The notes under the pieces: generated by a model
Told to the model about the DNA's origin: nothing
Database searches by the model: none
What the model saw: only the letters and a program-made list of their open reading frames with translations
Assembly: GCA_016282095.1 (NCBI GenBank)
Contig: JAEEJW010000010.1
Coordinates: forward strand, 1-32,906
DNA: 32,906 nucleotides
Source of the DNA: Ruminiclostridium sp.
GTDB lineage: Bacteria; Bacillota; Clostridia; Oscillospirales; Ruminococcaceae
Direction of reading: 5' to 3'
Shown here: in pieces, positions 1-1,642 of the stretch
Numbering within the stretch: position 1 is the stretch's first letter
Layout of the letters: each line of letters starts with the position of its first letter
Made by a program: the position numbers and the translations under genes

Positions 1-1642
1 ATCCATATATTTCTCCTATTTTACTAATTTCTTTTTTGATTTCTTCCCTTATCTCCTCGTCCATGATCTCCACATTCGTTCCATACTGCATCGCCCAGTG
101 AACGATCATGAAAGGAGAGGTCTTAACGTTTACCAGATCATATTTGTTGCCTTTGTCGTCTTCTCCGGCATCTCTGATCTTTTCATAATGATCTCCGAAC
201 CAGTCATGCAGGATCGTGTAATCATCATTTCTGATCTTTATGCAGATATCTCTCGGTTCGTCATAAGCCATATTGAGATGCTCCGCCATATACTTCTCCG
301 GATCCCAATAAGCATTACATATCGGAGTGCAGTCATAAGCGCTTATTTCAATCGGGATCTCCCTGCCGGTATCATCTTTCAGTATCTCAACGTCTGACAT
401 AAGATCTATGCGGTAGTGCCAGATACGCTTATCACCCTTTTTCAGTCCTATACAGTAGTAATTATCGTGATAAACAACCAGATGATACGGACTTAATATG
501 TGCGTATAATCGGATTTTGGGATCATCTTATGATCTTCGGTATATTGATTGAATTTAAAGCTGATCTGCACAAGATTATTGACGGCATATTGGATAGTCT
601 TAAGATTATGTACAAAGTGACTCTTTTCTTGGGGACGTCTCGTACTGAATCTTCCATGTACTGCCTTCGGATTAAACTTTATCTCTTTATCACAGAACGG
701 TGTATTATAATATACACTTGCGGTCGAAACAAGTTTTTTCACCAGAACACTCTTTTCATTTGCGTCCAGCATATCCGAAAAGCAGACAAGCTGAATGAGT
801 CTGTCGAGTTCATCATTGGTGAATATGTGAGAGAACCAAAAGTTTGTTATAGAATCAGCTTTCGTTCCCTTTTCCTTATTGAGCTTTTTCTTTATCCTAT
901 CTTCCTTATACCCATCATATTTGATCCTGTATTCATCTTCATTATCTTCAGAATATTCCAATGGATCAAGTTCGGTTATTATCTCCTCGATCGTTTTGGT
1001 TATCGTATTATCGGATTCAATGCCACTTTTCGAGTCATATTTTGTACCATATTTTGCAACTCTGTACAACCTGAGGAGATCAGAAAAGTCTTCCTTTGAC
1101 AGCTGATGATTTTCATCAGTCATAAGTTTCAGTATGCTAAGATACTGTAAACCACGTCTCTCTGCTGAATACTCTTTGATTTCAGATGCCTCATCAACAT
1201 ACACTCCGGGCTTACCGTATAAGCTCCTTGCCATGGCCGTCGGGATTGTATTTCCTTTGTCATCTTCGATATATACCCTTTTAATAGCCGCCTTTACTCT
1301 TCTTCCTTTTTCATTCAGATTAATCCCAAGCGAATTAATGTAAAAATCCAGTTCATCGGATATTTCTTCATCAATAAAAGATGTCGCGTATGTCAGAAAT
1401 TTTCCTTTATCAGGATCAAAGCGCTTCAGTGCCGAAATGAATCCTTTCCATCCAGCCTGAAACAGATCCTGCTCCATTTCACACTTTACGTTCTCTTTAA
1501 GATTCATACCTCTGAGCTTTTGCCAAGCGCGTTCATGCACATAGTTCCTGAAGTTTTCATAAACAAGTCCCCATGCCTTTTCGTCACCGGATTTTATTTT
1601 GATGATAAGTTCTCTGATTTGTTCTTCAGACAAATATTCCAT
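1..1642 (-). CDS. Sigma-70 region-2-like / HTH / WYL-WCX domain fusion protein (C-terminus truncated by window edge)
   Basis: Hand translation of the minus strand from ATG at 1642-1640 is open for 547 codons to the window edge. RBS AAGGAGG upstream (AACAAGGAGGCAGCATTATATGG). aa ~55-95 'EQDLFQAGWKGFISALKRFDPDKGKFLTYATSFIDEEISDEL' resembles sigma-70 region 2. aa ~345-422 'HNLKTIQYAVNNLVQISFKFNQY...SPYHLVVYHDNYYCIGLKKGDKRIWHYRIDLMSDVEIL' resembles WYL. aa ~465-540 'ICIKIRNDDYTILHDWFGDHYEKIRDAG...YDLVNVKTSPFMIVHWAMQYGTNVEIMDEEIREEIKKEI' resembles the WCX extension. Absent from the ORF track because there is no stop codon in the window. Confidence 0.88.
   Translation of the reverse strand, partial: MEYLSEEQIRELIIKIKSGDEKAWGLVYENFRNYVHERAWQKLRGMNLKENVKCEMEQDLFQAGWKGFISALKRFDPDKGKFLTYATSFIDEEISDELDFYINSLGINLNEKGRRVKAAIKRVYIEDDKGNTIPTAMARSLYGKPGVYVDEASEIKEYSAERRGLQYLSILKLMTDENHQLSKEDFSDLLRLYRVAKYGTKYDSKSGIESDNTITKTIEEIITELDPLEYSEDNEDEYRIKYDGYKEDRIKKKLNKEKGTKADSITNFWFSHIFTNDELDRLIQLVCFSDMLDANEKSVLVKKLVSTASVYYNTPFCDKEIKFNPKAVHGRFSTRRPQEKSHFVHNLKTIQYAVNNLVQISFKFNQYTEDHKMIPKSDYTHILSPYHLVVYHDNYYCIGLKKGDKRIWHYRIDLMSDVEILKDDTGREIPIEISAYDCTPICNAYWDPEKYMAEHLNMAYDEPRDICIKIRNDDYTILHDWFGDHYEKIRDAGEDDKGNKYDLVNVKTSPFMIVHWAMQYGTNVEIMDEEIREEIKKEISKIGEIYG

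Follow-up and report, generated by a model that had tools for sequence, protein, structure and literature searches.

A minus-strand gene at the edge of the window

The window, a stretch of 32,906 nucleotides that is an entire contig of a Ruminiclostridium sp., begins with a minus-strand frame (positions 2–1642) that is open over 547 codons. The frame starts with an ATG at position 1642 and is preceded, about 10 bp upstream on the same strand, by the ribosome-binding site AAGGAGG (1652–1658), in agreement with the good ribosome-binding site ascribed to it in an earlier note on this DNA. The contig end cuts the frame within its last codons; homologues end no more than a few residues from this position, so that nearly all of the protein is present. 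Since the window is the whole contig, the end of the gene and all DNA behind it are absent.

The N-terminal part (aa 1–103; 1334–1642) is a sigma-70 region 2-like domain, here referred to as sigma2, with the core motif DLFQAGWKGF...FLTYA, and was recognized by Pfam, by a family profile and by Foldseek. The Pfam match to Sigma70_r2 covers aa 58–98 (E 3.3e-7, above the gathering score), and many NCBIfam sigma models match the N-terminus, all below their cut-offs. A variable linker of low confidence follows (aa 104–157; 1172–1333; pLDDT mostly <50, mean pairwise identity 20%), and then a winged helix-turn-helix (wHTH; aa 158–228; 959–1171) that is conserved in 26 relatives and is the putative reader of the palindrome described below, its recognition-helix types tracking the palindrome types. 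The family alignment and the AlphaFold model place a helical linker or insert at aa 229–330 (653–958). The WYL domain (aa 331–424; 371–652) was matched by Pfam (PF13280, aa 346–420, E 8.1e-6, above the gathering score) and by PADLOC (E 1.3e-17), the remaining PADLOC matches being weak. The C-terminal extension (aa 463–547; 2–256) is WCX-like in its fold, which matches PafBC and DriD, and is the most conserved domain of the family; a significant WCX sequence match was not obtained for the window protein itself, and a weak one was found in one divergent member.

With a wHTH before its WYL domain and a WCX extension after it, the latter weakly matched in sequence, the protein has the arrangement of class A (HTH-WYL-WCX) regulators. 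With respect to the sigma-70 family, homology to region 2 is present and region 4 is not: no family match to region 4 was found in the window protein with Pfam or NCBIfam, a WYL-type wHTH lying behind region 2 instead, and no beta-flap contact is recognizable in it. The earlier note had proposed from the sequence a region 2-like N-terminus, an HTH segment at aa ~160–227 and a WYL domain at aa ~345–422, and had seen no convincing region 4, all of which was borne out. Its WCX extension at aa ~465–540 was upheld at the level of fold and not by a significant sequence match in this protein. The sigma domain, which it thought might replace or supplement the usual DNA-binding head, supplements a complete wHTH-WYL-WCX protein and does not replace the head.

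Directly upstream of the gene, positions 1860–2198 of the window hold one intact tRNA-Thr(CGT) gene together with two copies that retain only the 5' part, arranged in tandem repeats of 100 nt (85–90% identity), which may mark an integration hot spot or the decay of an array. The 3.0-Mb draft genome G000 contains 31 matches to sigma-70 region 2, many of them in short ECF-sized frames.

Distribution of the fused protein

A scan of one genome per species detected 13 relatives of 47–56% identity, mainly in Lachnospiraceae and Ruminococcus MAGs and isolates, their hosts being other gut and rumen Clostridia. Cultured carriers include Eubacterium ruminantium FB3002. Both halves are fused in all 13 of these genome-collection relatives, and also in genome G005 and in divergent members of another family. 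The independent fused relatives rule out a frameshift artefact that joins two separate genes, and they contradict the possibility, also raised earlier, that homologues never keep the two halves together. One relative (L012:7974–9668) carries an in-frame TAA in its WYL domain, indicating a pseudogene or an assembly error, and another (L006) is cut at the end of its own contig.

Within the genus of the window, one other genome among 71 carries the gene. A second, more distant group was found in another family within the class, where 14 of 115 genomes carry it; the members inspected start with a sigma2-like segment, which is sometimes very divergent (Pfam sigma2 at E 0.0055 in L028, and no match in L029). 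Genes that bear sigma2 occur once per genome, rarely twice. The genus also has WYL proteins, mostly of ~330–360 aa, that match the WYL half only. A phage, plasmid or viral origin was rejected, as phages, plasmids and IMG/VR held no full-length relative, and IMG/VR held no copy of the element described below. No report of a sigma2-WYL fusion was found in the open-access literature, an absence that is weak evidence of novelty, and the accessible portion of a survey of WYL classes, which included only architectures with at least 100 sequences, shows no sigma2-WYL class (PMC6789036).

Conservation and structural model of sigma2

A profile built from the first 103 residues of the family matches several native sigma factors of the window genome, with a best E value of 5e-16. 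Among close pairs, dN/dS of sigma2 is 0.09–0.28; sigma2 is under purifying selection. L60, G64 and T84 are invariant across 26 relatives. Sigma2 is the least conserved folded domain (35% versus 42–56%). At the position that we equate with R436 of sigma-70, most members have an acidic residue (D91). Aligned with sigma-70, the family seems to retain the D-L-x-Q-A-G core in region 2.2 and F-x-T-Y in region 2.3, and to lack the tryptophan pair and R436.

The AlphaFold model, made with 26 sequences, has a mean pLDDT of 71.8 and a pTM of 0.46, with good local confidence for sigma2 and for the WYL part and a disordered linker. In Foldseek, the model matched PafBC (E 6e-10) and DriD (E 7e-10) over ~400 columns. 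The sigma part matched sigma domain 2 of SigI6 over 102 columns (rmsd 3.7) and the N-terminal domain of SigE (TM 0.72 over the target), these sigma matches taken alone having E values of 0.002 or worse. Because whole-chain TM scores are low, the orientation of the domains is not predicted.

Genes behind the regulator

Over 28 loci, the genes at ranks 1–5 downstream lie on the same strand in 114 of 122 cases, mostly with short gaps, as against 86 of 124 upstream. In the relatives, the gene heads a co-directional operon, the content of which is variable. By clustering, 18 loci have calcineurin-like phosphoesterases, which fall into three clusters (representatives were identified, one of them weakly), 12 have an uncharacterized family c1 and 9 a family c2. 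HAD nucleotidases (NT5C) and HD proteins were found in several loci, and HAD_SAK_2, AAA_33 and a CbbX-like AAA protein once each. A theme of RNA or nucleotide processing is a guess. For family c1 (e.g. L060:3754–5001), AlphaFold gave a confident fold for residues 1–250, with no PDB match at E <0.001 and no convincing Pfam or NCBIfam match in the members scanned. These loci represent an apparently undescribed, phosphoesterase-rich type of operon in gut and rumen Clostridia. By analogy with them, the targets of the window protein probably lie off the left edge of the window, as the earlier note had supposed.

No CRISPR, BREX or CBASS gene, the kinds of neighbour for which that note had suggested a search, was present in the selection of neighbours scanned. 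In addition, no anti-sigma gene was recognized among the neighbours scanned, and no recurrent integrase family in the clustering. In one locus, the sigma2-WYL gene shares its operon with a gene for a second WYL protein, of 413 aa and without a sigma2 match (L003:10819–12060). The genes directly upstream include a recombinase-like ORF recognized by eye (L026:5078–6514), a HEPN-containing pair (L010:7226–7931) and a RelB-type pair (L012:7259–7972), from which the loci may be insertion hot spots.

A promoter-like element ahead of the downstream genes

In the relatives, the downstream genes are preceded by a repeated, apparently undescribed element, in which the centre of a palindrome lies 17–18 nt before a box CCATA(A/T). 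The consensus reads half-site, AATT, half-site, ~11 nt and CCATAATATA(A/G)GTGAAA. The element was first spotted by eye in the intergenic DNA of 5 loci and then found in 16 others by a strict rule; where the loci of its discovery are concerned, the statistics are post hoc. For the test, each [CT]CATA[AT] within 6.5 kb downstream on the strand of the gene was taken, and the dyad was scored at centre offsets of 10–40. Of the 189 downstream boxes, 13 had a dyad score of 8/9 or more, at offsets 17 or 18 only. The upstream and opposite-strand controls gave isolated matches, including a genuine element of L026 that reads the other way. With a dyad of at least 7/9, 29 elements were found, compared with an average of 0.55 over 200 shuffles (maximum 3) and 1 in a larger upstream stretch. 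Two of the 29, with boxes and dyads unlike the others, were set aside, so that 27 elements from 20 loci were kept. An earlier, relaxed scan (dyad 6/7, free distance) had been too noisy, with 29 matches against 3–14 in shuffles, and was replaced by the fixed-offset test.

The CCATA of the box is constant, with one T at the first base among the 27 elements, and the ribosome-binding site, where found, begins 25–154 nt after the box, mostly <100. The palindrome looks like a replacement of a −35 element and the box resembles a −10 element; taking CATAAT as the −10 hexamer would put the centre of the dyad near −31. The proposal of the earlier note that the HTH would stand in for −35 recognition agrees with palindromes that sit where a −35 element would be. 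The strict rule detected no element in 8 of the 28 loci (L002, L006, L009, L013, L050, L053, L057 and L059); weaker look-alikes were seen by eye in L002, L050, L053 and L057, and L006 is truncated. Ten loci of WYL relatives without sigma2 held no element. In the window genome, pattern searches gave matches at chance level, none with a dyad, because its downstream DNA is missing, and its own element would lie beyond the contig end.

Local occurrence and the putative reader of the palindrome

Searched with up to 3 mismatches, the TTCAA-type pattern gave 8 matches in four of six carrier whole genomes, all in the gene's own locus, and the reversed pattern gave none in the same six. Among the 71 genomes of the genus, the pattern occurred only in the one other carrier, with 0 matches in 69 others. 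With up to 2 mismatches, it had 0 matches in 391 genomes of the class, three of which are carriers with other palindromes or none visible. Since the matches are confined to the locus of the gene, the element is local and not part of a genome-wide regulon.

The half-sites vary by group (TTCAA, CTGCAA, CCGCAA, TGTATA and GTTCAG), and the box is the same in all. The recognition segment of the wHTH differs along with the half-site in the CTGCAA and TGTATA groups. This co-variation is consistent with a wHTH that reads the palindrome, although common ancestry by itself could also produce it. The helix of the window protein, NTITKTIEEI, is that of the GTTCAG group, from which a TTCA(A/G) half-site is predicted, ahead of a CCATAAT box; in many relatives, the element lies ~70 bp or less from the stop codon of the family gene.

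Possible mode of action

On the sequence evidence, we give about an even chance to a local, WYL-gated activator of the operon in cis, in which a putative wHTH dimer binds the palindrome and sigma2 engages the polymerase and/or the −10 element. The dimer would bind through its wHTHs, with the centre near −31, in place of −35 recognition; sigma2 would dock on the polymerase and read or open the CCATAAT −10; and the WYL/WCX part would switch the protein on upon sensing a ligand, which, to judge from PafBC, SiwR and DriD, is probably a nucleic acid or nucleotide. In its strongest form, the protein would itself be a sigma factor, with the wHTH replacing region 4. Such a sigma factor, gated by a ligand, contained in a single polypeptide and lacking region 4, would serve only the operon behind it, with a dimeric wHTH on the palindrome in place of −35, its own sigma2 on the CCATAA −10 and control by WYL/WCX; we place this tentative reading somewhat short of an even chance. 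Against the local activator in general we count the closeness of CATAAT to TATAAT, the least-conserved sigma2 with its acidic D91, the absence of region 4 and of a recognizable beta-flap contact, and the loci devoid of the element, as well as the window genome, which shows none.

Since CATAAT is one change from TATAAT, sigma-A could read it. The protein might then be an ordinary WYL activator of the PafBC/SiwR type that directs the sigma-A holoenzyme to these promoters, with the fused sigma2 serving only as an extra contact or a spacer. We regard this as less likely, although PafBC acts via domain 4 of sigma-A with a −26 motif (PMC11804915), and SiwR binds as a homodimer to a palindrome of 19 bp that is located between the −35 and −10 of an adjacent operon (PMC10693628); the acidic replacements in sigma2 would also suit it. 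Nearly all boxes, however, have CC before ATA and not the T of TATAAT, sigma2 is held under purifying selection, and the element is absent from the ten WYL loci that lack sigma2.

The poor retention of DNA-facing residues of regions 2.3 and 2.4, together with the precedent of PhyR (PMC8103513), would agree with a sigma2 that starts no transcription and instead captures an anti-sigma factor or competes with other sigmas for the clamp. This appears improbable, given the lack of a recognized anti-sigma gene among the scanned neighbours and the promoter-like elements beside the gene, which point to direct local action. We consider it highly improbable that the element serves recombination in a gene-cassette array or forms an RNA hairpin, with the regulator acting elsewhere. 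The variable gene content behind the regulator would be expected of such an array, and the copies in L004, L005 and L063 overlap an inverted repeat that reaches the ribosome-binding site. Against this, no recurrent integrase family was recognized, Rfam matched nothing but tRNAs in the seven loci tested, the orientation and the distance to the ribosome-binding site suit a promoter, and complementarity extends to the centre of the dyad (22, 19 and 22 of 27), a pairing that the loop of a hairpin does not require. In these three loci, the box lies within a longer inverted repeat (at ~+715 in L004, +33 in L005 and +36 in L063 after the stop of the family gene), the second arm of which coincides with or lies close to the next ribosome-binding site.

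Among nucleic-acid sensors, WYL regulators form a major class, whose well-studied activators borrow the housekeeping sigma. The fusion and the local signature together suggest a self-contained, signal-controlled start of transcription. If this is true, the family would illustrate how parts can be combined into a signal-gated sigma factor, with a short promoter-like signature strictly beside its gene.

Comparison with known systems

Activation by WYL proteins between −35 and −10 is already known from PafBC and SiwR; the sigma2 fusion and the constant, non-canonical box appear to be new. SiwR of Mycobacterium smegmatis shares with the present family a WYL regulator with an HTH, an adjacent dinB-like operon as target and a promoter palindrome between −35 and −10, and differs in that the accessible part of its description mentions one target operon, no sigma2 domain and no constant CCATAA box (PMC10693628). 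PafBC and DriD have the same wHTH-WYL-WCX fold, whereas they work with the housekeeping sigma and neither carries a sigma2 domain. PafBC also reprograms the polymerase holoenzyme at its own promoters (PMC11804915), but does so as a PafB/PafC heterodimer on the non-palindromic RecA-NDp motif, whereas here there is no tandem gene pair and the element is palindromic.

SigO-RsoA of Bacillus subtilis likewise has sigma2 apart from sigma4, in a split sigma able to start transcription (PMC8103513). Its sigma4 is a second protein, whereas in the present family that role would fall to a WYL-type wHTH of the same chain. ECF41 and ECF42 presumably differ from the window protein in retaining sigma4. They resemble it as sigma proteins with a fused regulatory module in a C-terminal extension, for which the accessible part of the review mentions no WYL domain (PMC8103513). 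PhyR is a response regulator and not a WYL protein. It serves as a decoy for an anti-sigma factor. What it has in common with the window protein is a sigma-like domain fused to a sensory domain (PMC8103513).
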